A stretch of 64,000 bases of DNA from Brevundimonas intermedia. GTDB lineage: Bacteria > Pseudomonadota > Alphaproteobacteria > Caulobacterales > Caulobacteraceae. A model generated the notes under the pieces. That model ran no database searches, was not told where the DNA came from, and saw nothing but the letters and a program-made list of their open reading frames with translations. The translations under genes were made by a program, and so were the position numbers. The stretch is from assembly GCF_004614235.1 (NCBI RefSeq), contig NZ_SPVH01000006.1, forward strand, positions 1,178,001 through 1,242,000, given 5' to 3'. Each line of letters begins with the position of its first letter. Positions within the stretch are counted from its first letter, which is position 1. Shown one piece after another: positions 4,442-59,602 of the stretch.

Positions 4442-6559
4442 ATGTCGCTGAACTCGATCATGAACATCGCGACGTCGGGGCTGAAGACGGCCCAGACCCA
4501 GTTGCGCGTGACCGCCGACAATATCGCCAACGTCGATACGCCCGGCTACATCCGCAAGGTCGCAGACCAGTCGGCCGCCGTCACCAACGGCTATGGCTCC
4601 GGCGTCGATATCACACGGGTCCGCTTGGCGACCGATCGGTTTCTGCAAGCCGCAAGCCTGAGCGCCGGCGCGGATGCGGCCCGCCAGACCGTGCGTTACG
4701 AGCTTTACGACCAGATCCAGAACCAGTTCGGCGACCCCAGCAGCGACAGCAATTTCTTCGCCCAGGTCGACAAGCTGTTCGCCAGCTACGCGACCTTGGC
4801 CGAAAGCCCGACCTCGTCCGCGGGGCGTCAGGACACCATCTACAAGACCCAGGCCATCTTCAATCAGGCCTCGGGCATCGCCTCGCAGATCCAGTCGGCA
4901 CGCCAGGAGGCGGACGGGCGACTGCAGAGCGCGATCGAGACGGTCAATCCGCTGCTTGAGCAGATCGCCAAGCTGAACAAGACGATCGCCTCGGGCACGG
5001 TGACCAATGAGGATGTGACCGGCGCCCAGAATGCCCAGCTTGGACTGATCAACGAACTGTCCAAATATATGGATGTGAAGGTCGAGGCCCGCTCCAATGG
5101 CGGCGTGACCCTGCGCACCAATGCCGGCACGACCCTGGTGGGCGAAGGCGCGGCGACGCTGTCGTATCAGTCGGCCGGCACGGTCGACGCCACGACGGCC
5201 TTCTCTGACATCATGATCACGGAGCCCAGCGGCACGCGCTGGCCGCTGCTGGACGGCGTATCGTCGGGTCAGATCAGGGGGCTTGTCGAAATCCGCGATG
5301 TCGATGCCCCGGCAGCCGCCGCGCGTCTGGGCGAGCTGACGGCCAAGCTGGCGGACGAACTGAACCGCGCACACAACGCCAACAGCAGCGTGCCGGCGCC
5401 GACGACCCTGGCGGGGCGCAATACCGGACAGTCGCTTGAGAACGCTCTGACCGGTTTCACCGGCACGACCACGATCACGGCGGTCGACGCGGCCGGCGTG
5501 GTGCAGGCATCGGCTCGGATCGTTTTCTCCGGCGGCACGATGACGATCAATGGGGCAGCCGCTGACCCGACCAGCTTCCTCAGCGTCCTGAACGCCCAGA
5601 TGGGCGGGGCGGCGACGGCCAGCTTCTCGGACGGCAAGCTGCAACTGGACGGCGCGGGCGGCAACGGCGTCGCCATCGCCGACGATGCGACATCGCCCAG
5701 CGCCAAGGGCGGTCGCGGGTTCTCGCACTGGTTCGGTCTGAACGACCTGGTTTCGACAACCACGCCCAGCTTCTATGAGACCGGCCTGACCCTGGCGTCG
5801 GAACACGGCTTCGATCCGGGCGAAAGCCTGACCCTGCGCGTCTCTGGACAGTCGGGGTCGCGTCAGCGCGACATCACTGTCTCGGTGCCGGCCGGTACGG
5901 GGACGATGGGCGAGATGCTGGGCGCGTTGAACGACCCGATCACGGGCGTCGGACGCTATGGCTCCTTCAGCCTGGACGCGGCCGGCAAGCTGGCGTTCAA
6001 GGCCTACGATCCGGCCGCCACGACCCTGAGCGTGGTCAATGACAACACGACCCAGGACCCGTCGGGCGTTTCGATGTCTCAGTTGTTCGGCCTTGGGGAG
6101 ACCGGGGCGACGCGGGCCGGCGCCTATACGGTTCGCAGCGACATTCAGCAGGATCCCGGCAAGCTGGCGCTGGCGCAGTTGAACCTGTCGGCGGCGGCGG
6201 GCGCGCCTGCCTTGAGTAAGAGCGACGGACGCGGCGGCCTGGTGCTGGGCGACGTGGGCAAGAAGAATGTCGCCTTCGGCGCGGCCGGTGGAAACTCGGG
6301 CGGGACCAAGACCCTGTCGTCCTATGCCGCAGACTTCGCAGGCGAGATCGGCGGCAAGGCCTCGGCCGCCAAGACCCGCAGCGAAACGGCGAACGCCCTG
6401 GCCAGGGAGGCGGACAGTCGCCGCACCTCGGCCGAGGGCGTGAACATGGACGAGGAACTGGTCAATATGACCACCTTCCAGCAAGCCTATAACGCCTCTG
6501 CGCGCCTGATCCAGGCGAGCAAGGACATGTACGACGTTCTGATCGGAATCCTGCAATGA
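4442..6559 (+). CDS. flgK: Flagellar hook-associated protein 1 (HAP1, FlgK)
   Basis: Forms the first hook-filament junction ring. The protein has 705 residues with the axial-protein signatures at both ends: SLNSIMNIATSGLKTAQ and NIANVDTPGYIRK at the N-terminus, and GVNMDEELVNMTTFQQAY followed by ASARLIQASKDMYDVL at the C-terminus. The middle (about 300-600) is the variable surface domain, rich in Gly/Thr. The stop overlaps the flgL start by 4 nt (ATGA), implying translational coupling. It is expressed from a sigma-54 promoter 143 bp upstream and is homologous to Caulobacter flaN. Confidence 0.95.
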   Translation: MSLNSIMNIATSGLKTAQTQLRVTADNIANVDTPGYIRKVADQSAAVTNGYGSGVDITRVRLATDRFLQAASLSAGADAARQTVRYELYDQIQNQFGDPSSDSNFFAQVDKLFASYATLAESPTSSAGRQDTIYKTQAIFNQASGIASQIQSARQEADGRLQSAIETVNPLLEQIAKLNKTIASGTVTNEDVTGAQNAQLGLINELSKYMDVKVEARSNGGVTLRTNAGTTLVGEGAATLSYQSAGTVDATTAFSDIMITEPSGTRWPLLDGVSSGQIRGLVEIRDVDAPAAAARLGELTAKLADELNRAHNANSSVPAPTTLAGRNTGQSLENALTGFTGTTTITAVDAAGVVQASARIVFSGGTMTINGAAADPTSFLSVLNAQMGGAATASFSDGKLQLDGAGGNGVAIADDATSPSAKGGRGFSHWFGLNDLVSTTTPSFYETGLTLASEHGFDPGESLTLRVSGQSGSRQRDITVSVPAGTGTMGEMLGALNDPITGVGRYGSFSLDAAGKLAFKAYDPAATTLSVVNDNTTQDPSGVSMSQLFGLGETGATRAGAYTVRSDIQQDPGKLALAQLNLSAAAGAPALSKSDGRGGLVLGDVGKKNVAFGAAGGNSGGTKTLSSYAADFAGEIGGKASAAKTRSETANALAREADSRRTSAEGVNMDEELVNMTTFQQAYNASARLIQASKDMYDVLIGILQ

Positions 6560-7521
6560 CGCGCGTCGCGACCCACGGGAACTACCAGTCGGCCCTTCTC
6601 AGTCTGATGAACGCGCAGAGCCGCGCCCAGCAGGCGCAGGAGCGGATCGACAGCGAAAAGATCGCCACCGACATGTCCGGCTATGGCCGGGGCGCGGAAC
6701 AACTGACCAGCCTGACCTCGACCCAGGCGCGTCTGGAGGGCTTCATCTCGACAGGAGAGGCCGTGGCGGCGCGGTTGAGCGCGCAGGACCTGGCCATGAC
6801 CCGCGTCTACGAGGGCGGAACCGGCGCGCGCGAGGCCATCGCCACCAGCCTGGCGGCGGGCAATATCACCAATCTGATGACCGAGCTGGGCCTGCACTAT
6901 CAGACGGTCCAGGGCGGACTGAACGCCGAGCATCAGGGGTCTTATCTGTTCGCGGGCGGTCAAGGCGACATCGCGCCGGCGACGGCGGGGGCCATGGCCG
7001 CCCTCGCGACGGCGCCCTCGGTCGCCTCGACCTTCGCCAACGACACGCTGAAACAGAAGTCGCGCATCGACGAGAAGACGACCGTCGAGACCGGCTTTTT
7101 GGCCAGCGAGATCGGCGGACCGCTGACCGAGGTGTTCCGCAACATCCAGGCCTTCCAGAACGGCACGCCGGTGACGGTGGGCGCCGTGACCTATACGCCG
7201 GCCGGGCCGGGCACGCTGACCGGCCAACCCAATGCCGACATCACCGCCTTCCTGAACGCGCAGATGGGCGAACTGGACAAGGCCAATGCGGGTCTGACCA
7301 ACCAGACCGCCAAGAACGGCCTAATGCAGAACCACGTCGAGTCGGCGCTGGATTCTCAGGAAGGCCAGAAAACGGCCCTGCAAAAAATGATGCAGGATAA
7401 GTCGGGCTATGATCCTGCGCGTGCGATCACCGACCTGCAGATGGCGCAGGTGGCGATTGAGGCCTCGGCCCAGATCATCAACTCGCTGAAGAACACGTCG
7501 CTGTTGAACCTGCTGCGCTAA
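6556..7521 (+). CDS. flgL: Flagellar hook-associated protein 3 (HAP3, FlgL)
   Basis: Second hook-filament junction protein, a flagellin-fold protein. The protein has 321 residues. Its N-terminal helix carries ALLSLMNAQSRAQQAQERI, and its C-terminal helix carries ITDLQMAQVAIEASAQIINSL, the pairing expected for the flagellin D0/D1 domains. A segment LHYQTVQGGLNAEHQGSYLF is the usual FlgL mid-region. The ATG overlaps the flgK TGA by 4 nt. No strong terminator follows: only a short A-rich run separates the gene from the SOS-controlled operon downstream. Confidence 0.92.
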   Translation: MTRVATHGNYQSALLSLMNAQSRAQQAQERIDSEKIATDMSGYGRGAEQLTSLTSTQARLEGFISTGEAVAARLSAQDLAMTRVYEGGTGAREAIATSLAAGNITNLMTELGLHYQTVQGGLNAEHQGSYLFAGGQGDIAPATAGAMAALATAPSVASTFANDTLKQKSRIDEKTTVETGFLASEIGGPLTEVFRNIQAFQNGTPVTVGAVTYTPAGPGTLTGQPNADITAFLNAQMGELDKANAGLTNQTAKNGLMQNHVESALDSQEGQKTALQKMMQDKSGYDPARAITDLQMAQVAIEASAQIINSLKNTSLLNLLR

Positions 7522-7573: not shown

Positions 7574-7588
7574 GAACGTATCATGAAC
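7574..7588. promoter_or_regulatory. LexA (SOS) box at the start of the radical SAM-UdgX operon
   Basis: GAAC-GTATCAT-GAAC is a perfect match to the alphaproteobacterial LexA operator (GTTC-N7-GTTC, here read on the minus strand). Its last base lies one base before the ATG at 7590. A repressor here would cover the start of a leaderless mRNA or its -10 region. Confidence 0.88.
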
Positions 7589-7589
7589 A

Positions 7590-8828
7590 ATGGCTCGTCT
7601 CGATCTGCGTCGAAAACTGTCCGTTCTCGCTGATGCGGCGAAATACGACGCCTCGTGTTCGTCGTCGGGGACGTCGAAACGGAACTCTGTCGGCGGCAAG
7701 GGGATAGGCTCGACCGAGGGTATGGGCATCTGCCACGCCTATACGCCGGACGGGCGCTGCATCAGCCTGCTGAAGATCCTTCTGACGAACTTCTGCATCT
7801 ACGACTGCGCCTATTGCATCAATCGCGTGTCGTCGAACGTGGAGCGATCGCGGTTCGATGTGGACGAGGTCGTCGACCTGACGCTGAACTTCTACACGCG
7901 GAACTATATCGAGGGGTTGTTTCTGTCGTCGGGCATTATCCGATCGGGCGACTATACGATGGAGCAGCTGGTTCTGGTCGCCAAGACCCTGCGCGAGGTT
8001 CACGACTTCCGCGGCTACATCCACCTGAAGCTGATCCCTGAGGCCGATCCCAAACTGGTGGAGATGGCGGGCCTGTATGCCGACCGTCTGTCCGCCAATA
8101 TCGAACTGCCGCGCGACGAGGCCCTGGCCCGATTGGCGCCGCAAAAGGACGTCGGCGTCATCAAGAAGGCGATGAGCCAGGTGCGGCTAGGCGTCGAGGC
8201 CGCCAAGCCGGGCAAGCGCGACAAGATCAAGCCGCCGAAGTTCGCCCCGGGCGGCCAGAGCACCCAACTGATCATCGGCGCCGACGGCGCGCCAGATACG
8301 GAAATTCTGGATCGCAGCGCGTCGCTGTACGGCGGCTATGGGTTGCGACGGGTCTATTATTCGGCGTTCAGCCCGATCCCGGATTCGAGCGCCATCCTGC
8401 CCCTGTCCAAGCCGCCGTTGATGCGCGAGCACCGCCTGTATCAGGCCGACTGGCTGATGCGGTTCTACGGCTTTTCCGCGCCAGAGATCGGGGAGGGGGC
8501 GTCGGACGGCATGCTGGACCTGGCGATCGATCCCAAACTGGCATGGGCGCTGAACAAGCGCGAGCAGTTTCCGGTCGATGTGAACCGGGCGCCGCGCGAG
8601 ATGCTGCTGAGGGTGCCGGGGCTTGGCGTGAAGGCGGTGGACCGGATCGTGTCGGTGCGGCGCTATCGGACCTTACGGCTTGAGGATGTCGGGCGGTTGA
8701 CGCGGTCGGTGGCCAAGATCCGGCCGTTCATCACGGCGCTGGATTGGACGCCGGGTGGGCTGACGGATGCAGCGGACCTGAGGGCGCGCGTGACCAGCCG
8801 CACGCCCGAGCAGTTGAGCCTGTTCTGA
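7590..8828 (+). CDS. Radical SAM protein, putative DNA modification/repair (UDG-linked family)
   Basis: A 412-residue radical SAM enzyme. The cluster motif is C69-x3-C73-x2-C76 (NFCIYDCAYC). Before it come the family landmarks LADAAKYDASC and GSTEGMGICHAYTPDGRC. After the SAM barrel, a helix-hairpin-helix region at about 330-380 (RAPREMLLRVPGLGVKAVDRIV) suggests DNA binding. These features match the TIGR03916-type family that occurs next to uracil-DNA glycosylase-like genes; its substrate is unknown to me. The start at 7590 fits the family N-terminus. No Shine-Dalgarno is visible, so a leaderless transcript is likely. The TGA overlaps the next ATG (TGATG). The LexA box just upstream predicts SOS induction. 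Confidence 0.9.
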   Translation: MARLDLRRKLSVLADAAKYDASCSSSGTSKRNSVGGKGIGSTEGMGICHAYTPDGRCISLLKILLTNFCIYDCAYCINRVSSNVERSRFDVDEVVDLTLNFYTRNYIEGLFLSSGIIRSGDYTMEQLVLVAKTLREVHDFRGYIHLKLIPEADPKLVEMAGLYADRLSANIELPRDEALARLAPQKDVGVIKKAMSQVRLGVEAAKPGKRDKIKPPKFAPGGQSTQLIIGADGAPDTEILDRSASLYGGYGLRRVYYSAFSPIPDSSAILPLSKPPLMREHRLYQADWLMRFYGFSAPEIGEGASDGMLDLAIDPKLAWALNKREQFPVDVNRAPREMLLRVPGLGVKAVDRIVSVRRYRTLRLEDVGRLTRSVAKIRPFITALDWTPGGLTDAADLRARVTSRTPEQLSLF

Positions 8829-10282
8829 TGGCGACGGCGATGCTGGACGGCGAGACGGACTTCGACGGCTGGCGCAAGTCGGCGCGGGCGTTCCGACTGG
8901 CGGGGGTGGAGCCGGCGGCGGCGCGGTTCGTGGTGCGCGGCGGGCAGGAGCAGGGGGGATTGTTCGATGAGCCGACCGCCGCTCACCCCAGCCTACGGGC
9001 AGACGAGCGGCAGGAATTCAGCGTCCCCAAAGACTTCGTGGATCTGGCTCAGAACCTGATCCTGCACCGATCCGCCGACCGGTTCGACCTGATGTATCGG
9101 CTGCTGTGGCGTCTGCGGGACGAGCCCGATCTGATCAAGGTGATTTCCGACCGAGACGTGGCGGACGCCCTGGAGCGGGTGAAAAACGTCAGTCGTGCGT
9201 CTCACAAGATGAAAGCCTTCGTGCGCTTTCGCCAGGTGCATGACGACCGCGGCGAGGCCTGGGTGGCGTGGTTCGAGCCGCCGCACCGGGTGCTTGAAAA
9301 GACCGCGCCCTTCTTCCAGCGGCGGTTCACGACGATGCGGTGGTCGATCCTGACGCCTGACGGGTCGGCCTTCTGGGACGGCGAAACCCTGCGGTTCGGC
9401 CCGCCCGCGACGCGCGACATGGCGCCGGACGAGGACGAGATCGAGGACTTCTGGAAGACCTACTACGCCTCGACCTTCAATCCCGCGCGTCTGAAGGTGA
9501 AGACCATGCAGGGCGAGATGGCCAAATCCTATTGGAAGAACCTGCCGGAGGCCGCCCTGATCCCGGAGCTGATCGCCGCCTCGTCGGTTCGCACCGAGAC
9601 CATGGTCGCCGCACCCGCGCCCGAACCCAATCCGCGTTTCGCGCGCCTGACGGCTCCCGATCTTCACGCCGCGCGGCCGGATGCCGAGGCCGTGCCCGAC
9701 AATCTGGCGGATGTGGTGGACGGGGTTCAGGCTTGCCGCCGTTGTCCCCTTTATCGCGATGCGACCCAGGGCGTGTGCGGGGAGGGACCAACGACGGCGC
9801 GTCTGATGATCGTCGGCGAACAGCCGGGCGATCAGGAGGATTTGGCCGGCCGCGCCTTCATCGGGCCGGCAGGTCAGGTGCTGGACGCCGCCCTGGCCGA
9901 GGCAGGCATCGACCGATCCGACGTCTACGTCACCAACGCCGTCAAACACTTCAAGCACGAGCCGCGCGGGAAGCGCCGTCTGCACAAGACGCCCAACGCA
10001 GGCGAGGTCCAGGCCTGTCGCTGGTGGCTGGATGCGGAGCGGCGGCTGATCAAGCCCAAGGTCGTGCTGGCGCTAGGCGCGACGGCTGGTTCGGCGCTTC
10101 TGGGTCGCAAGCCCGCCGTGATGCAGGAACGCGGTGCGCCAATCCCGCTGGAGGATGGTTCGACCGCCGTCCTGACCGTCCATCCCTCCTATCTGCTACG
10201 CCTGCCGGATGAAGCGGCGAAGGCTCAGGCGCGTCGGCTGTTCATCGACGATCTGGTGGCCGTTCGGCGTCGTATGGATTGA
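8828..10282 (+). CDS. DUF4130 domain fused to UdgX-type uracil-DNA-binding glycosylase
   Basis: A 484-residue, two-domain protein. Residues ~1-245 form the DUF4130/TIGR03915 domain found beside UDG-linked radical SAM enzymes, with HRSADRFDLMYRLLWRL and RWSILTPDGSAFWDG. Residues ~290-484 are a family-4-like uracil-DNA glycosylase of the UdgX class: iron-sulfur cysteines start with C303-RR-C306, motif A is GEQPGDQED (330-338), the R-loop is GKRRLH with H386, and motif B is HPSYLLR. In characterised UdgX the His of this loop bonds covalently to uracil-excised DNA, so this protein probably captures uracil sites. It is co-transcribed and translationally coupled with the radical SAM gene. The ATG at 8828 is chosen from the TGATG junction. 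Confidence 0.92.
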   Translation: MATAMLDGETDFDGWRKSARAFRLAGVEPAAARFVVRGGQEQGGLFDEPTAAHPSLRADERQEFSVPKDFVDLAQNLILHRSADRFDLMYRLLWRLRDEPDLIKVISDRDVADALERVKNVSRASHKMKAFVRFRQVHDDRGEAWVAWFEPPHRVLEKTAPFFQRRFTTMRWSILTPDGSAFWDGETLRFGPPATRDMAPDEDEIEDFWKTYYASTFNPARLKVKTMQGEMAKSYWKNLPEAALIPELIAASSVRTETMVAAPAPEPNPRFARLTAPDLHAARPDAEAVPDNLADVVDGVQACRRCPLYRDATQGVCGEGPTTARLMIVGEQPGDQEDLAGRAFIGPAGQVLDAALAEAGIDRSDVYVTNAVKHFKHEPRGKRRLHKTPNAGEVQACRWWLDAERRLIKPKVVLALGATAGSALLGRKPAVMQERGAPIPLEDGSTAVLTVHPSYLLRLPDEAAKAQARRLFIDDLVAVRRRMD

Positions 10283-10511: not shown

Positions 10512-11627
10512 ATGAGCCAGCCGCAGTATGAAATCGTCGATGCGGACGGCGCGGCCAATCTGCGCCTGTCCGGCGATTGGACGACGACGGCGCTTGGCCG
10601 TCTGCCGACCGAGCTGAGCCGCGACCTGGAAGGCCGCGAGATCGCCAGCATCGACACTGCCGATCTGGGCCGGTTCGACACGGCCGGCGCTCTGGCCTTG
10701 GTGCAGGCGTCCAGCGGGCGTCTGTCGAAAAGCCAGTGGAAGGATCGGCCCGAGGCCGGTCGCATCTACCACATGATCGAAGTGCTGGAGCGCGAGAGCG
10801 CCCCGGCCCCGAAACGTCCCAGCGCCTTCATCCGCACCTTCGCCAAGATCGGCCGGGGCGTCTATGATTTCGGCGGCGAGGCGATGCTGTCGCTGGCCTT
10901 CCTCGGTCGGCTGATGGCGGCTGTGGTCGAGGCGGCCAAACACCCCGGCGGCATTCGCTGGCCGGCCTGGGTCAGTCAAGCCGAGCGGGCCGGGCTGGAC
11001 GCCATCCCGATCGTCATGATCACCAACTTCTTCATCGGCGCCGTGATCGCCTTCATCGGCGTGGATCTGCTTACCGATTTCGGCGCCCAGGTGTTCGCTG
11101 TTCAGCTGATCGGCGTGGCCATGTTCCGCGAGTTTGCGGTGGTGATCGCCTCTGTCCTGCTGGCCGGGCGTTCGGCCTCGGCGTTCGCGGCCGAGATCGG
11201 CTCGATGCGGATGAACCAGGAGGTCGACGCCATGCAGGTCATGGGCGTCAATCCGTTCCAGGCGCTGGTGATCCCGCGTGTCGCGTCCCTGGTGCTGATG
11301 CTGCCGCTGCTGACCTTCATGGGCATGATCGGCGGCCTGGTCGGCGGTCTGGTCGTATGCTGGAGCTCGCTGAATCTCGGCCCATCCTTCTTCTTCCAGC
11401 GTCTGGTCGAGGACGGCACCATGGCGCAGCACCTGATGGTGGGCCTGGTGAAGGCGCCGGTCTTCGCCCTGGTCATCGCCGCCATCGGTTGCCGTCAGGG
11501 CATGTCGGTCGCCGGCGATGTCGAAAGCCTGGGGCGCCGGGTGACCGCCGCCGTGGTGCAGGCCATCTTCGCCATCATCTTCCTGGACGCCGTGTTCGCC
11601 CTGATCTTCCTGGAGCTGAACATATGA
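10512..11627 (+). CDS. mlaE: MlaE-family ABC transporter permease with N-terminal STAS-like domain
   Basis: Inner-membrane permease of an MCE/Mla-type lipid transport system. The protein has 371 residues. Residues 1-~100 look like a STAS domain fused in front, with DLGRFDTAGALALVQ. The MlaE domain follows, with several membrane spans, the family segment MFREFAVVIASVLLAGRSASAF split around residue 220, and EVDAMQVMGVNPFQ. It heads a four-gene operon (permease, ATPase, MCE protein, lipoprotein); its TGA overlaps the next ATG by 4 nt. STAS-MlaE fusions are usual in alphaproteobacteria. The cargo (phospholipid retrograde or anterograde) cannot be read from sequence. Confidence 0.9.
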   Translation: MSQPQYEIVDADGAANLRLSGDWTTTALGRLPTELSRDLEGREIASIDTADLGRFDTAGALALVQASSGRLSKSQWKDRPEAGRIYHMIEVLERESAPAPKRPSAFIRTFAKIGRGVYDFGGEAMLSLAFLGRLMAAVVEAAKHPGGIRWPAWVSQAERAGLDAIPIVMITNFFIGAVIAFIGVDLLTDFGAQVFAVQLIGVAMFREFAVVIASVLLAGRSASAFAAEIGSMRMNQEVDAMQVMGVNPFQALVIPRVASLVLMLPLLTFMGMIGGLVGGLVVCWSSLNLGPSFFFQRLVEDGTMAQHLMVGLVKAPVFALVIAAIGCRQGMSVAGDVESLGRRVTAAVVQAIFAIIFLDAVFALIFLELNI

Positions 11628-12412: not shown

Positions 12413-13351
12413 ATGGAAAGAGACGCACATTACGCCGCAGTCGGGATCGCCACCGTCTGCCTTTTGGCGGCGCTGGCCGTGTTCACCATCTGGCTGGCCC
12501 GGCTGCAGTTCAACAGCGATTACGACATGTACGACATCGTCTTCTATGGGCCGGTGAACGGTCTGTCAGAAGGCGGCGAGGTCCATTTCAACGGCATCCG
12601 CGTCGGCGAGGTGACGGACTTGAACATCGACACCAAGCGCGGCGACCAGGTCATCGCCCGCGTGCGGGTGGACGGCACGACGCCGGTGCGCGTCACCTCG
12701 CGCGCCCAGCTGGAGCCGCAGGGCATCACAGGGCTGAACTATATCCAGATCACCGCCGGTTCGCCGAACAGCGCCCTGCTGAAGGAGCAGTATCCCGACA
12801 ATGTCGTGCCGGTGCTGCAAAGCCAGCCGTCGCCGATCGCCGAACTGCTGAGCGGTTCCGGCACGGTTCTGGCCCAGACGGTGGATGCGCTGAACCGGAT
12901 CAACCGCGTCATGTCCGACGACAACATCCGCAGCTTCTCGACCAGCGTGAAGAACGTGGAATCCCTGACGACAGAGCTTGAGGCCCGCAAGGCCATCTTC
13001 CAGCAGTTGGAAGAGGCCGTGACCAACGCCAACGCTGCGGTGAAGGAATATCAGGCCCTGGCCGTCGATACGCGCCAGATCGTCAATACCGACGGTCGCC
13101 AGGCCATCGCCAACATCAACTCGGCGACGGCGGAGGCCCGCACGGCCATCGCCTCGGCCAACCGGTCGATCAGCGGGCTTGAGCGTCCGCTGGGCGATTT
13201 CGCCACCACCAGCCTGCCGCAACTGACGGGCACCATCGAAGAACTGCAGGACGCCACCCGTTCGCTGCAGTCCCTGATCGACGATGTCCGCGCCAGCCCG
13301 CGCGACTTCATCGGTCGTCCCCAATCCAAAGAGCTGGAGGTGCAGCCGTGA
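12413..13351 (+). CDS. mlaD: MCE (MlaD) family substrate-binding protein
   Basis: Periplasmic lipid-binding subunit tethered to the inner membrane. The protein has 312 residues. One N-terminal membrane anchor lies at about 8-30 (VGIATVCLLAALAVFTIWL). A single MCE domain at about 38-115 contains GLSEGGEVHFNGIRVGEV and LEPQGITGLNYIQI. A long alpha-helical C-terminal region (about 140-305) should form the hydrophobic channel seen in MCE hexamers. It starts 12 bp after the ATPase and overlaps the lipoprotein gene by 4 nt. Confidence 0.92.
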   Translation: MERDAHYAAVGIATVCLLAALAVFTIWLARLQFNSDYDMYDIVFYGPVNGLSEGGEVHFNGIRVGEVTDLNIDTKRGDQVIARVRVDGTTPVRVTSRAQLEPQGITGLNYIQITAGSPNSALLKEQYPDNVVPVLQSQPSPIAELLSGSGTVLAQTVDALNRINRVMSDDNIRSFSTSVKNVESLTTELEARKAIFQQLEEAVTNANAAVKEYQALAVDTRQIVNTDGRQAIANINSATAEARTAIASANRSISGLERPLGDFATTSLPQLTGTIEELQDATRSLQSLIDDVRASPRDFIGRPQSKELEVQP

Positions 13352-15012: not shown

Positions 15013-17961
<2,949 letters not shown>

Positions 17962-18042
17962 GCTGTCCGGAGAACGCGGAGGAGGGCCGGTCGGGTCCGG
18001 CGCGACATCGCTATATGGGGATGAATCGCGCGATTGAAGCAA

Positions 18043-18057
18043 GAACAATGTGTGAAC
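18043..18057. promoter_or_regulatory. LexA (SOS) box shared by uvrA and the parDE-like pair
   Basis: GAAC-AATGTGT-GAAC on the plus strand reads GTTC-N7-GTTC towards uvrA. It lies 82 bp from the uvrA ATG and 36 bp from the antitoxin ATG on the other side, so LexA could affect both promoters. Confidence 0.87.
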
Positions 18058-18093
18058 ATTGCGGTGGTCCCCAGCCTGGGTTATCGTCGCCCT

Positions 18094-18339
18094 ATGGCCG
18101 ATGGTTTCGACATCCACCTGAACGAAGATCAGGCGCGGCGGCTGAAGGCTGCGGCCGAAGCGGCCGGCGTTGAGCCGGCGGCCTATGCGCTTGAACTCAT
18201 TGAGGTCGCCATCCAGAACGATTGGGGCGAGGACGAGCGTCGGTTCGCCGAATATGAGCGGACGGGCGAGTATATCTCCTTGGAGGAGTTTTTGCGGCCC
18301 TTTGAGGATCTTCTGGCAGAGAAGAAGCGTCGAGCTTGA
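18094..18339 (+). CDS. ParD/RHH-like antitoxin
   Basis: A small protein of 81 residues directly before a RelE/ParE-type toxin gene. The N-terminus [21 protein letters not shown] resembles a ribbon-helix-helix DNA-binding unit. The acidic C-terminal half ([20 protein letters not shown]) fits a toxin-binding tail. The ATG at 18094 is chosen because the ribbon strand begins a few residues later; an upstream start at 18034 would overlap the LexA box. The stop overlaps the toxin start by 4 nt. It is divergent from uvrA. The assignment rests on gene pairing and fold pattern, not on a strong family signature. Confidence 0.78.
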
Positions 18340-47006: not shown

Positions 47007-47404
47007 CCATGGACGATCAGAACGACGAAGACGGCGGCGGTTTCGACGCCGAGGACTGGACGCGGCTGAAGCCGTTCGTCGGCGCCGTGGCGACCCTGGA
47101 CGACGTCCAGGCGCGCCGGGCGGTCTTCGCCCTGGGGGAGACGGATGATCCCCGGCCCATCGTCATGGACCTGCCCCAGCCGGTGATCTGGTGGGAGGAG
47201 GACGGGGAGCAGGCGGCGGTGGCTGTCCAGGCCGAAAGCCACCTCGGCCCTGACGGCGAGGAGATGGAGATCCTCGGCCTGATCCTGCCGGACGGCGAGG
47301 GCGCGGTGGCCTTGCTGGAGGATGTCGATCTGGTCGATGATACCGATCCGACCTGGCGCGACCTGGTCACCCGCGCCATCGACCCGTCGGCGGCGGACGA
47401 CTAG
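47003..47404 (+). CDS. Small acidic protein of unknown function
   Basis: A 133-residue protein, strongly acidic at both ends. The middle reads RPIVMDLPQPVIWWEEDGE and MEILGLILPDGEGAVALLEDV. I recognise no domain. The ATG overlaps the methyltransferase stop by 4 nt, so it is co-expressed with that gene. Its stop shares CTAG with the convergent radical SAM gene. Confidence 0.75.
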   Translation: MTMDDQNDEDGGGFDAEDWTRLKPFVGAVATLDDVQARRAVFALGETDDPRPIVMDLPQPVIWWEEDGEQAAVAVQAESHLGPDGEEMEILGLILPDGEGAVALLEDVDLVDDTDPTWRDLVTRAIDPSAADD

Positions 47405-48465
47405 CTGAACAGCTCAAGCTGCGGCCGAGCGTCGGCGGGAACGCGGAACTGGGTCTCGTCCAGCAGGCGGTGGGGCGTATCGAGGCCGTAGCGTTTAACG
47501 GCGGCCTTGAACCGCGCGCCGATCAGTTCGGCCACCGGGCCTGTACCCTTCATGCGCTGGGACCAGTCGGCGTCGTAGTCCTTGCCGCCGCGCGTCTGGC
47601 GGATAAGCGACATGACGCGCGCCGCGCGGTCCGGTCGGGCGTGGGCCAGCCACTCGCGAAACAGGTCTTTGATCTCCAGCGGCAGGCGAAGCGTCACATA
47701 CATTGCCCGCGTCGCTCCCGCCTTGGCCGCCGCCTCCAAAATCGATTCCAGTTCGTGGTCGTTCAGGCCGGGGATGACGGGCGCGAACCCTACGCCGACG
47801 GGACAGCCCGCATCTGCCAAGCGGCTTATGGCCTCCAGCCGTTTCGCCGGGGTCGAGGCGCGGGGCTCCATCGCGCGGGCCAGACCGCGATCCAGCGTGG
47901 TGATGGAGACGAAGGCCGAGGCCAGCCCCGCCTTGCCCATCGGACCCAGGATGTCTGCGTCGCGCCCGATCAAAACCGACTTGGTGATGATGCTGAACGG
48001 GTGGTTGAAGCGTTGCATGACCTCCAGGATCGAGCGCGTCGATTTCAGATCTCGCTCCACCGGCTGATAGGGGTCGGTGTTGCCGCCTATGTGGATGCGT
48101 TTGCACCGGTATCGGGGGGCGAGGAACGCCTGTTCCAGCAGACTTGCGGCCTGGGGCTTGAAGAAGATCCGGCTCTCGAAATCCAGGCCCGGGGATAGGC
48201 CCATCCAGGCATGGGACGGACGGGCGTAACAGTAGATGCAGCCATGTTCGCAACCTTTGTACGGGTTGATGGAGCGGTCGAATCCGATGTCCGGGCTGTC
48301 ATTCCGGGCGATGATGGTGCGGGCATGCTCCGGGGTGAGGGTGGTGCGCAGCGGCGCGGCCTCGGCGTCGTCGCGCGTCCAGCCGTCGTCGAACGATTGA
48401 TGCTGTTCAGGCTCATAGCGGCCGGTCGCATTCGAACGCGCCCCTCTTCCCTTGGCGGTTTCCAT
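47401..48465 (-). CDS. PA0069-family radical SAM protein (spore-photoproduct-lyase-like)
   Basis: A 354-residue radical SAM protein. The cluster motif is C-x3-C-x2-C in YKGCEHGCIYCYARPSHAW. Other family marks are RTIIARNDSPDIGFDRSINPY (split by the helix), IHIGGNTDPYQPVE and SIITKSVLIGRDADIL. This is the PA0069/Rv2578c-type family related to spore photoproduct lyase; its substrate is not established. The start ATG at 48465 lies 26 bp downstream of a perfect LexA box, so SOS induction is predicted. It is convergent with the preceding gene and overlaps it by 4 nt. Confidence 0.88.
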   Translation of the reverse strand: METAKGRGARSNATGRYEPEQHQSFDDGWTRDDAEAAPLRTTLTPEHARTIIARNDSPDIGFDRSINPYKGCEHGCIYCYARPSHAWMGLSPGLDFESRIFFKPQAASLLEQAFLAPRYRCKRIHIGGNTDPYQPVERDLKSTRSILEVMQRFNHPFSIITKSVLIGRDADILGPMGKAGLASAFVSITTLDRGLARAMEPRASTPAKRLEAISRLADAGCPVGVGFAPVIPGLNDHELESILEAAAKAGATRAMYVTLRLPLEIKDLFREWLAHARPDRAARVMSLIRQTRGGKDYDADWSQRMKGTGPVAELIGARFKAAVKRYGLDTPHRLLDETQFRVPADARPQLELFS

Positions 48466-48490: not shown

Positions 48491-48505
48491 GAACAAAGCA
48501 AGAAC
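48491..48505. promoter_or_regulatory. LexA (SOS) box before the PA0069-like radical SAM gene
   Basis: GAAC-AAAGCAA-GAAC reads GTTC-N7-GTTC towards the gene. The second GAAC also forms the palindrome GAACATTTGTTC (48502-48513), which is the Gram-positive type of LexA operator, so two operator formats overlap. Confidence 0.86.
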
Positions 48506-58333: not shown

Positions 58334-59602
58334 CTACGGCTTCAGCGCGCGCCCCGCCACCACGGCGTCCTTGCCGAACTTCTCGCGCAGTTTGTCGATG
58401 GCGCGTTCGGTCTTCAGGGTGCGGGTCTCGGGGGTCTGGAACAGGCCGACGGGCGCGTCCTCGGCGTCCTGGACGTCGGCCATGCCGATGCCGATCAGGC
58501 GGTAGGACGGGCCCAGCTCGGGCTTCAGCAGGTCACGCCCGGCGGCGAACAGGGCGCGCGCCGTCTGGACCGGGTCGGGCAGGGTGATGCGGCGGGTGAC
58601 GATCTTGAAATCGGTGCGGCGCAGTTTCAGCACGAGGACGCGGCTGGCGACGCCGTCGCGACGGGCTTTGGACGCCAGCTTCTCGCACAGGGGCCACAGT
58701 TCGGCCTCCAGCGCCTCGGCCGAGGTCAGGTCCTCGTTGAAGGTTGTCTCGGCGCTCATTCCCTTGCGGTCGCGTTCGGGGTTCACGGCGCGGGCGTCGC
58801 GGGCGTGGGCCAGTTCGTGCAGGCGCAGGCCCGATTCGCCGTAGCGTTTGACCAGATCGCGCACGTCCGCGCGGGCCAGATCGCCGATGGTCGAATAGCC
58901 GTCGCTGCGCAGCGCCTTGCCGAACACCGGGCCGACGCCGGGCAGGGTGGTGACGAGGCGCGGCGCCAGCAGGGCCTGGGCGTTGGCGGCGCCGACGACG
59001 GAGAAGCCGCGCGGCTTGTCCATCTCGGACGCCATCTTGGCCAAGAAGCGGTTGGGGGCCAGGCCGATGGAGACGGTCAGGCCGGTCTCCTCCTCGATCT
59101 GTTTCTGGAAACGGATCAGCTGAAACGCCGGAGGCCCGCCGTTCAGCCGTTCGGTGCCCGACAGATCGACCCAGGCCTCGTCCAGCGACAGAGGCTGTAT
59201 CAGCGGCGTCAACCGACCCAACGCCCCCAGAATACGCTGCGATTCGAAGACGTATTTGGTGAAGTCCGGCCTGATGACCACCGCCTCGGGACAGGCCTTC
59301 AGCGCCTTGAACATCGGCATGGCGGACCCGACGCCGTACTGGCGCGCGACATAGCAGGCGGTGGAGACGACCCCGCGCTTGCCGCCGCCGACGATGACCG
59401 GCTTGTCGCGCAGCTCCGGCCGGTCGCGCTTCTCCACCGAGGCGTAGAAGGCGTCGCAGTCCATGTGGGCGATGGACAGCTGGTCCAGTTCGGGATCGGC
59501 GACGATGCGCCGCGACCCGCACGCCGGACAGCGGCGCTCGGGCGGTCCGGCGGGATCTTCGCCGGTCCACAGGCAGTCGCGACAGATGGCCTTGATGGCC
59601 AC
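58334..59602 (-). CDS. dinB: DNA polymerase IV (DinB) with N-terminal zinc ribbon
   Basis: A 422-residue Y-family translesion polymerase. An N-terminal zinc ribbon (C7-x2-C10 and C25-x2-C28) precedes the usual start [17 protein letters not shown]. Palm motifs include [18 protein letters not shown] and [15 protein letters not shown]; the thumb has [18 protein letters not shown]. The zinc ribbon is a known alphaproteobacterial variant. No LexA box is visible in the 103-bp gap to divK. The gene is divergent from divK. Confidence 0.94.

Follow-up and report, generated by a model that had tools for sequence, protein, structure and literature searches.

A predicted LexA-controlled gene pair encoding a radical-SAM protein with a clamp-like tail and a DUF4130-UdgX fusion in Brevundimonas intermedia

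Two overlapping genes of Brevundimonas intermedia probably form a damage operon under LexA control, centred on a radical-SAM repair machine of two proteins that is tethered to the sliding clamp, with a UdgX domain that acts as a covalent cap. We favour this reading with modest confidence. It draws on features that are read from sequence: the families of the encoded proteins, the overlap of their genes, the LexA boxes, the constancy of the pair, the optional presence of UdgX, a conserved tail and the residues of the UdgX domain.

The two genes and their products

The window, that is the whole stretch of 64,000 nucleotides analysed here, contains the following features of the locus.

7574..7588, + strand: LexA box GAAC-N7-GAAC, separated by a single base from the radical-SAM start codon and holding a -10-like TATCAT
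7590..8828, + strand: radical-SAM gene (P0001, TIGR03916), 412 aa, TGA at 8826-8828
7656..7760, + strand: triad of N-terminal cysteines (C23, C48 and C57) kept in 81 of 81 aligned sequences, of putative function
7794..7817, + strand: radical-SAM cluster motif C69-x3-C73-x2-C76 (CX3CX2C, from the alignment)
8571..8663, + strand: helix-hairpin-helix (HHH_3), residues 328-358 (Pfam match)
8811..8825, + strand: QLSLF, a peptide like those that bind the beta sliding clamp, residues 408-412 (alignment, pattern search)
8826..8830, + strand: TGATG stop/start overlap, suggesting translational coupling
8828..10282, + strand: DUF4130-UdgX fusion gene (P0002), 484 aa, read from ATG 8828
8852..9553, + strand: DUF4130 / TIGR03915 domain, residues 9-242 (NCBIfam, Pfam)
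9557..10261, + strand: UdgX / TIGR03914 domain, residues 244-478 (NCBIfam, fold search, alignment)
9971..9985, + strand: KRRLH loop (residues 382-386), ending in H386, the cross-linking histidine (sequence, alignment)

The two open reading frames share a single base. A program-made list of open reading frames places the start of the fusion gene further upstream, at a TTG; the coordinates used here are those from the ATG at 8828.

P0001 matches TIGR03916 (rSAM_link_UDG) with 543.5 bits (cut-off 343.5, model positions 1-393 of 415), and its match to Pfam Radical_SAM is slightly below the Pfam cut-off. Both features of membership in TIGR03916, the CX3CX2C motif and the helix-hairpin-helix, are present. 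The latter is found as HHH_3 at E<=1 in 80 of 81 orthologues from the alignment, the strongest match being 4.3e-7, and in P0001 itself with an E-value of 0.0012, under the Pfam cut-off. The protein contains six cysteines, at positions 23, 48, 57, 69, 73 and 76, all of which are invariant in the alignment. The first three are a possible auxiliary Fe-S or metal site, in a region (residues 21-60) that is modelled at low confidence (pLDDT 48-74).

The best folds listed for the P0001 model are HydE, lipoyl synthase (Z 15.8, 3.2 A over 221 residues) and biotin synthase. Spore photoproduct lyase (SPL) is absent from the 50 fold matches listed, which is uninformative for the SPL fold. Apart from its own family, P0001 matches the NCBIfam models ThiH, LipS1, HydE, MqnE and CofG at E<=1; the SPL model is not among these six families, in a search whose HMMER filters drop most matches above about 0.1. 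Compared by sequence with solved structures, P0001 yields nothing at E<=0.001. The corresponding profile search returns weak matches to helix-hairpin-helix proteins (ComE/ComEA, best 0.034, and RuvA) and to the cluster region of HydG/HydE, together with single doubtful ones.

These comparisons bear on two alternative roles. In SPL, a C-terminal cysteine serves as the hydrogen donor; P0001, unlike SPL, has no cysteine C-terminal to residue 76. A direct reversal of a UV thymine lesion in the style of SPL would be in keeping with the CX3CX2C core, the helix-hairpin-helix and the LexA boxes, and an excerpted legend from 2013 ties DUF4130 to 'SplB-like radical SAM photolyases' (PMC3765255). By sequence, however, P0001 is nearer to the ThiH, HydE and lipoyl-synthase models than to SPL, the best listed folds are likewise others, and we consider such a reversal distinctly improbable. 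Sulfur insertion or another modification of a nucleobase is a second candidate, for which the triad would hold an auxiliary cluster and the product would be a modified rather than a repaired base. Auxiliary clusters are present in lipoyl synthase, whose fold is among the best listed, and in MiaB-type enzymes, and the three invariant cysteines of P0001 lie upstream of the radical-SAM motif. Yet the cluster is putative and its region poorly modelled, and a base-modifying enzyme need not be SOS-induced; we regard this role as very unlikely.

P0002 matches TIGR03915 (SAM_7_link_chp) with 204.6 bits (cut-off 112.25, residues 9-242) and Pfam DUF4130 with 129.4 bits against a cut-off of 27. Nine columns of the DUF4130 domain, among them R133, R166, R221 and E241, are invariant in 19 rows that include distant relatives, and residues 209-241 form a conserved segment. 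Residues 201-280 are modelled at low confidence, and the DUF4130 profile gives one noise match only (E 1.9) against solved structures; the fold list for the protein is filled by uracil-DNA glycosylases (UDGs).

The second half of P0002 matches TIGR03914 (UDG_fam_dom; 320 bits, residues 244-478) as well as Pfam UDG, the latter above cut-off. It superimposes on UdgX of Mycobacterium smegmatis (6l6s) with Z 31.6, 1.4 A and 50% identity. Residues E331, D335, D338, F344, N370, K373, R384, H386 and H452 retain all nine positions named for that enzyme in the excerpted text (E52, D56, D59, F65, N91, K94, R107, H109 and H178, with a KRRxH loop; PDB 6ajo, 6l6s; PMC10776899). The fold is thus the same, whereas the UdgX of P0002 is fused behind DUF4130 and its gene overlaps a radical-SAM gene. 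The column of H386 holds a histidine in 58 of the 58 aligned rows with a residue there. The preliminary description had the coordinates and the TGATG coupling exactly right; its gene content (a radical-SAM protein and a DUF4130-UdgX fusion), its helix-hairpin-helix and its assignment of H386 to the KRRLH loop are borne out as well, with all three NCBIfam models above cut-off.

Distribution of the pair, its LexA boxes and UdgX

With matches below cut-off counted as absent (TIGR03916: 13 of 31 in the class sample and 7 of 46 in the phylum sample; TIGR03915: 1 of 42 in the phylum sample), TIGR03915 occurs in 39 of the 39 genomes that harbor TIGR03916 within a phylum sample of 249 genomes. In the class sample, DUF4130 is found in 17 of 18 radical-SAM genomes, the exception being cut by a contig end. 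The control genomes, Caulobacter vibrioides and Bacteroides ihuae, match both models, and the species to which Caulobacter crescentus NA1000 belongs matches all three families, TIGR03914 included. DUF4130 above cut-off is found without a radical-SAM match above cut-off in 2 of the 249 genomes, once near a contig end (G468) and once inside a contig of 7.15 Mb (G484), and two distant radical-SAM loci (L119 and L121) have no DUF4130 in the stretch examined. These exceptions indicate that the pair can be broken.

The window contains five exact LexA boxes, compared to 1.55 expected, and none of 100 shuffles reaches five. A box at the place seen here is kept in 78 of 80 orthologous loci, with 81 near boxes against about 1 expected; this set (genome_contigs) comprises the best 80 of 589 confirmed loci, whose titles are alphaproteobacterial or broader, and is therefore silent on other phyla. 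The box is also found at 17 of the 18 radical-SAM loci of the class sample and at 19 of 19 further alphaproteobacterial loci, which are a part of those new in the phylum sample; the three sets may share species. The locus thus carries what characterizes the alphaproteobacterial LexA regulon, a GTTC-N7-GTTC operator at the promoter that is conserved in orthologues. Outside Alphaproteobacteria, a box of the E. coli type (CTGT-N8-ACAG) is found at 8 of 11 loci and in Caballeronia, counted without a shuffle control. No box stands at L048, L057 and L003 or at 3 of the 11 non-alphaproteobacterial loci, and the loci of Parabacteroides, Acinetobacter, Fusobacterium and Gemmatirosa and locus L121 contain none of the patterns searched for. 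SOS control is therefore not universal, or other motifs are used.

The -10-like TATCAT lies inside the LexA box, hence the promoter probably overlaps the operator, and the mRNA may lack a leader. Further upstream, the loci share a weak TTGGC-like consensus, represented in the window by CTGGAC, two bases further upstream, and a Shine-Dalgarno-like string follows the box in 5 of 73 loci. With these elements, the promoter reading is no more than suggestive.

UdgX is the variable component. Of 17 alphaproteobacterial pairs, 10 have it fused to DUF4130 and 7 do not; outside Alphaproteobacteria it is unfused in 8 of 11 pairs, and in the examples from Bacteroidota, Acinetobacter and Fusobacterium none was found next to the pair. 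Stand-alone UdgX is present in genomes that have no radical-SAM match above cut-off, and 1 of 16 such stand-alone genes has a LexA box. TIGR03914 as a model matches in 274 of 289 genomes, of which the 24 above cut-off were counted as present. On a tree of DUF4130 (126 rows), the state of UdgX changes 10 times, with 7 changes forced by the starred branches; the tree is a quick one, built with no mixture model and under a warning of the tool that long branches may meet. Its input were 132 loci, of which L081 and L082 (no DUF4130 match), two loci cut at an end, and L066 and L132 were taken out, the last two being doubtful with DUF4130 and UdgX in different frames. L001, L018, L019, L119, L121, L137 and L140 were left out of the input.

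The constant core is probably the radical-SAM protein together with DUF4130, with UdgX as an optional add-on. Given that UdgX is often unfused or not found nearby, that DUF4130 is nearly constant and that stand-alone UdgX genes mostly have no box, the pair probably has a job of its own. The preliminary description had proposed SOS control, for which the predicted box and its conservation argue, and had called for a survey of gene neighborhoods and LexA boxes, in which the boxes follow the radical-SAM/DUF4130 pair and UdgX varies. Its model has UdgX capture a uracil-like lesion while the radical-SAM partner performs radical chemistry on the nucleic acid; in a variant, this partner undoes the bond between protein and DNA. 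The model is in line with the fusion in more than half of the alphaproteobacterial pairs, the invariant histidine and the gene overlap. It is difficult to reconcile with LexA-boxed pairs that have no fused UdgX in several lineages, and with stand-alone UdgX genes that occur in genomes with no radical-SAM match above cut-off and mostly without a box. A place for UdgX in the core mechanism, as the half that captures the lesion, is hence not supported, and we judge this model quite unlikely.

A clamp-like peptide at the C-terminus

Peptides that bind the beta clamp follow the consensus Q-[L/M]-x-L-F or Q-L-x-L-x-F and lie in flexible regions. P0001 has both characteristics, as QLSLF is part of a tail (residues 391-412) with a pLDDT of 53-65 in the model. 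A strict form of the motif is found in 75 of 80 orthologues, compared to 1 of 1329 control open frames (at least 200 aa from stop to stop, taken from six frames and including many that are not genes). By column, Q is kept in 80 of 81 sequences, L or M in 80 of 81, L in 80 of 80 and F, L or I in 79 of 80, and the adjoining linker is variable. The exceptions among the 80 are L042, which has EQPRLL in place of the motif, and four variants. The tails of distant relatives, read by eye, contain QLSLL, QLILPF, QLSLGF, QLKLF, QLSMF, QLSFF and QLSLW, the last three 20-40 residues ahead of the stop codon. For L119, L120 and L121, a scan of the last 25 residues is negative and the motif is seen by eye 20-40 residues before the stop. 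As a positive control, DnaE of the same genome carries QVSLF at residue 925 of its open reading frame under a looser pattern. The stricter pattern missed this DnaE, two Y-family polymerases and ImuB of the same genome, and is therefore specific rather than sensitive.

It is conceivable that QLSLF only folds or packs as a tail and that the operon is a usual SOS-regulated pair of genes unconnected to the clamp. Clamp binding is a prediction, and neighboring residues are partly conserved too, with a common P at column 403 and a common E at column 407. Against this stand the retention, across several phyla, of a consensus of five or six residues at the C-terminus or close to it next to a varying linker, the contrast to the control frames and the low pLDDT of the tail, and we consider a packing tail unlikely. 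Clamp binding by the conserved C-terminal peptide is the reading we prefer. The conserved L45-F46 of DUF4130 was weighed as a further clamp motif but rejected, as it has no conserved glutamine and the LF is not kept in all distant relatives.

Proposed mechanism and relation to known systems

Binding and induction by LexA, binding to the clamp, action on DNA, the lesion and the chemistry are the parts of the mechanism that we infer. RecA would trigger cleavage of LexA, which would free the promoter inside the box, and both proteins would be made in coupled amounts. The radical-SAM protein would grip DNA by its helix-hairpin-helix, and QLSLF would tether it to the beta sliding clamp, placing it at stalled replication or gap filling. 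DUF4130, a basic domain and near-obligate partner, may hold nucleic acid or dock on the radical-SAM protein. Together they would carry out 5'-deoxyadenosyl-radical chemistry on a DNA lesion, for which the cysteine triad may provide an auxiliary cluster. Where fused, UdgX would excise uracil that stems from deamination or is left by the core reaction, and would stay bonded via H386, hiding an otherwise breakable abasic site. In its most specific form, which we hold with slightly more doubt than belief, the proposal is an SOS-induced radical-SAM enzyme on the sliding clamp that, with DUF4130, converts a replication-blocking lesion, after which UdgX, where fused, removes a product or bystander of the uracil type and seals the site by a covalent bond, a pathway that is not described in the literature searched. 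RNA or protein is also possible as the substrate.

The preliminary description called the system a candidate undescribed one, which does not hold, and stated that the families are known to co-occur, which does. TIGR03916, TIGR03915 and TIGR03914 are three linked NCBIfam families, all of which score far above cut-off here and whose linkage is implied by the model names. These names carry no reaction, and the longer notes of the curators may already cover the co-occurrence; our measurements add the clamp-like tail and the finding that UdgX is optional, both of which go beyond the names. COG4277, in turn, we take to be the same family as TIGR03916. An SOS-regulated two-gene COG1573-COG4277 (UDG) operon under LexA appears in the excerpted text of Sanchez-Osuna et al. 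2021 (PMC8565304), which cites work on Verrucomicrobia and Caulobacter and views the operon as uracil base-excision repair countering ribonucleotide misincorporation. The plan, two genes with a UDG under LexA, is the same as here, and Caulobacter crescentus is related to our organism. In contrast to that view, UdgX appears dispensable in our data, and DUF4130 with the radical-SAM protein appears to be the core. The legend of Anand et al. 2013 (PMC3765255) links DUF4130 to radical SAM and UDG, in an excerpt that contains neither a clamp motif nor pair statistics. A further likeness is to ImuB of the ImuA-ImuB-DnaE2 mutasome, described in excerpts (PMC8102061, PMC3901139) as SOS-induced, with a beta-clamp motif, and as delivering a further activity to the clamp. 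ImuB itself is an inactive polymerase, whereas the putatively tethered protein here is a radical-SAM enzyme.

A term search of the retrieved parts of Caulobacter and SOS papers (PMC9578287, PMC12907096, PMC6120978, PMC4211646) gave no passage on these genes. TIGR03914 is listed for PMC13212565, and PMC9380542 includes a LexA-linked 'radical SAM protein' from Streptomyces, which may or may not belong to TIGR03916. No reaction for the pair was found in the literature searched. The pair is present in about one sixth of the phylum-sample genomes (39 of 249) and in other phyla, and its LexA boxes are of two kinds. Its chemistry can be approached directly through the clamp-like tail and through the core of radical SAM and DUF4130, and pairs that have no UdgX could separate the core chemistry from uracil capture. 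A cisplatin phenotype is reportedly a possible finding of Price 2018. If the proposal is true, radical-SAM chemistry, carried by a clamp-tethered enzyme, would rank beside the translesion polymerases as an answer to DNA damage that the clamp delivers, and DUF4130 would be a new class of radical-SAM partner.

Two other identities were considered and dropped: that of a defence system, as neither P0001 nor P0002 matches any family of PADLOC (anti-phage defence models) at E<=0.001, and that of phage genes, for which PHROGs gave one match only, weak and of unknown function, in the UDG part. The viral_contigs collection holds two loci only. Ten records come from phage collections, eight of them 'Bacteriophage sp.' faecal contigs with no annotation and two labelled Acinetobacter phage. 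The record of one locus, L118, is a molecule of 2.1 Mb labelled as a plasmid.

The gene pair and its LexA boxes

The preliminary description had proposed a translationally coupled gene pair at 7590-10282, and two open reading frames are found there, 7590-8828 and 8828-10282, whose stop and start have one base in common (TGATG). Its reading as a radical-SAM gene followed by a DUF4130-UdgX fusion is confirmed by the NCBIfam families TIGR03916 (radical SAM), TIGR03915 (DUF4130) and TIGR03914 (UdgX), all matched far over their cut-offs; the first is named 'putative DNA modification/repair radical SAM protein'. With Pfam, the second protein matches DUF4130 and UDG, and the first matches Radical_SAM slightly below the cut-off. 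The helix-hairpin-helix is likewise recovered (HHH_3 in 80 of 81 orthologues at E ≤ 1), and residue 386 of the second protein is the histidine of KRRLH. Neither flanking gene is an obvious partner of the pair.

Features of the window
6556-7521: FlgL-like open reading frame upstream of the radical-SAM gene (69 bits, below cut-off)
7574-7588: alphaproteobacterial LexA box GAACGTATCATGAAC, ending one base before the ATG of the radical-SAM gene
7590-8828, plus strand: radical-SAM protein, 412 aa (TIGR03916, far over cut-off)
8828-10282, plus strand: DUF4130 (TIGR03915) followed by UdgX (TIGR03914), 484 aa (both far over cut-off)
10512-11627: MlaE-type permease downstream of the DUF4130-UdgX gene
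15013-18117, minus strand: uvrA (NF001503, 1572 bits), LexA box 18043-18057
47401-48465, minus strand: second radical-SAM gene, PA0069 family (NF033668, 502 bits), LexA box 48491-48505

Five exact LexA boxes are observed in the window, with 1.55 expected. Two of the further boxes, at uvrA and at the PA0069-family gene, are a built-in positive control for the pattern; at the boxes at 12855 and 44056 no SOS gene is evident. Because the NF001503 match starts at residue 56 of the uvrA open reading frame, ~90 bp past the exact box, this box probably lies upstream of the true start. The exact box 48491-48505 precedes the first start codon of the PA0069-family gene by ~25 bp, and the encoded protein is possibly another SOS-linked radical-SAM protein.

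The SOS control predicted earlier for the pair is supported by a survey of LexA boxes. A box lies at most 300 bp upstream at 78 of the 80 named-genome loci (the best 80 of 589; exceptions L048 and L057), and -17 is the precise starting point of 42 of the 81 near boxes; the rest of the 842 kb contains 30 boxes, corresponding to ~1 predicted in the same spans. A box is also found directly upstream at 17 of the 18 TIGR03916 loci of the alphaproteobacterial class sample (exception L003) and at 19 of 19 additional alphaproteobacterial loci, although species may overlap between the three sets. An alignment around 73 boxes reveals a weak TTGGC-like element and an AT-rich -10-like core within the box, and a Shine-Dalgarno-like string follows the box in only 5 of the 73. 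The operator may therefore coincide with both the promoter and a leaderless start.

Outside the class, the E. coli-type pattern CTGT-N8-ACAG is found directly upstream at 8 of 11 loci, and also at the Caballeronia locus, with an arithmetic chance expectation of ~0.005 per locus (eight fixed bases in ~340). None of the box patterns tried occurs at the other three loci (L153, L155, L156), nor at those of Parabacteroides, Acinetobacter, Fusobacterium, Gemmatirosa and the distant locus L121; L120 shows nothing beyond a looser, distant match.

A Y-family polymerase (IMS_C match) is located at ~58460-58768 (minus strand; G000:C6:1236460-1236768), with no exact LexA box within its 3.3 kb locus (L161). 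Elsewhere in the same genome, a second Y-family polymerase has an exact box directly before its likely start (L162), and DnaE2 comes after an ImuB-like protein in a locus whose box is at position 29 (L163).

Co-occurrence of the pair and fusion to UdgX

Within the class sample, TIGR03916 and TIGR03915 are each present over cut-off in 18 of 289 genomes, and both in 17. In the two exceptions, a contig end truncates the radical-SAM gene (G045) or DUF4130 lies beside a radical-SAM remnant (G182). The locus of this remnant (L019) still has an exact LexA box, which suggests a recent loss of the enzyme. In the phylum sample (249 genomes), TIGR03916 is present over cut-off in 39 genomes and TIGR03915 in 41; all 39 of the former also harbor TIGR03915, on the same contig and strand and within ~3 kb, and G468 and G484 have DUF4130 with no radical-SAM match over cut-off. 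The pair can thus be broken, as at locus L182 of G484, where a DUF4130-UdgX gene with a LexA box is found. At the distant loci L119 and L121, DUF4130 was not found in the stretch fetched (8 kb for L119).

Fusion to UdgX is seen in 10 of the 17 pairs from the class sample and 3 of 11 pairs outside the class; in Parabacteroides, Acinetobacter and Fusobacterium, no UdgX was found adjoining the pair. In a quick DUF4130 tree (126 rows), some long branches of which are unsure according to a warning of the tool, the fused or unfused state changes 10 times, 7 changes being forced by starred branches. Since the pair is often not fused to UdgX, and unlinked UdgX genes over cut-off in the class sample have a box directly upstream at only 1 of 16 loci (L178), radical SAM and DUF4130 appear to constitute the core, with which the LexA boxes go, and UdgX an optional module. 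In Azospirillum sp. TSA2s, a reverse-oriented TnpB-type gene (L122, 4737-5879) lies between the radical-SAM gene and DUF4130-UdgX.

Structure of the encoded proteins

The barrel in the predicted model of the radical-SAM protein (pLDDT 83.5, pTM 0.82) is nearest, among the fold matches listed, to HydE (Z 16.1, 2.4 Å, 211 residues), tied within 1 with lipoyl synthase (Z 15.8, 3.2 Å, 221 residues) and biotin synthase (Z 15.4). The sequence models following its own family are ThiH, LipS1, HydE, MqnE and CofG, all weak. The protein's six cysteines do not vary across the 81-row alignment: 69, 73 and 76 belong to the radical-SAM cluster; 23, 48 and 57 lie upstream. As this N-terminal triad is also retained in the distant relatives examined, Gemmatirosa excepted, it could plausibly hold an auxiliary cluster.

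The same alignment ends, after a linker variable in sequence and length, in a conserved tail: Q (80/81), L/M (80/81), any residue, L (80/80) and F/L/I (79/80). The strict motif is present in 75 of the best 80 of 589 loci, with four conservative variants and one locus (L042) devoid of it; as a control, the same ending occurs in only 1 of the 1329 other open frames that these loci contain with a length of 200 aa or more. The 11 tails from outside the class all conform to Q-x-x-L-[F/W/L], seven by script pattern and four as QASLF or QGSLF. Distant tails, identified by eye, are QLSLL (Caballeronia), QLILPF (Parabacteroides), QLSLGF (Acinetobacter) and QLKLF (Fusobacterium); three more, located 20-40 residues ahead of the stop, are QLSMF and QLSFF, from faecal contigs of a phage collection, and QLSLW, from a Gemmatirosa protein of 36% identity. 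We take this Q-L-x-L-F-like tail to be the bacterial beta-clamp consensus. The DnaE of the same genome carries QVSLF at ORF residue 925; two Y-family polymerases and ImuB from this genome have no strict match to the clamp motif. The tail is modelled at low confidence, as would be expected for a flexible peptide. A search of the literature for radical SAM together with the sliding clamp gave nothing apparent on the TIGR03916 family, as judged from the listing. The Gemmatirosa relative (L119, 3492-4766), with QLSLW near its C-terminus and no N-terminal cysteine triad, perhaps represents a separate subfamily.

For the second protein (predicted model: pLDDT 88.4, pTM 0.54), a fold search matches the UdgX half to UdgX 6l6s (Z 31.6, 1.4 Å, 50% identity), and the nine residues that PMC10776899 names for the M. 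smegmatis enzyme are all present. In one UdgX fusion from outside the class (L149), the loop no longer carries the usual KRRxH string, hence cross-linking may not be universal. In DUF4130, the residues R133, F134, P151, R166, I174, W209, R221, W236 and E241 are invariant throughout a diverse alignment of 19 rows. That these include three arginines and a glutamate suggests binding of nucleic acid or a partner rather than a catalytic centre. The conserved segment 209-241, modelled at pLDDT 62-72, might fold on a partner.

Proposed sequence of events and earlier reports

Upon DNA damage, LexA would be cleaved and the coupled pair made. The radical-SAM protein would then get to lesions at the clamp, assisted by DUF4130, and UdgX, if present, would remove uracil and cap the site. 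We prefer this order, core first and UdgX second, given that UdgX-less pairs exist.

The system had been put forward as a candidate undescribed one, which does not hold: its kind is already known, though uncharacterised, from the NCBIfam families and from an SOS-regulated operon in print. According to the accessible part of that paper, SOS regulation of a two-gene COG1573-COG4277 operon was predicted in Bacteroidetes in 2021, with Verrucomicrobia and Alphaproteobacteria cited for the same SOS-regulated operon (PMC8565304). Our literature search, which did not cover the Caulobacter and Verrucomicrobia regulon papers, found neither UdgX together with DUF4130 or radical SAM nor any print on the clamp-like tail, the division into core and optional module, or two box types in one phylum. 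A survey of Caulobacter repair genes, in its accessible part, has CC2333 as one of four UDG-family genes (PMC1839093).
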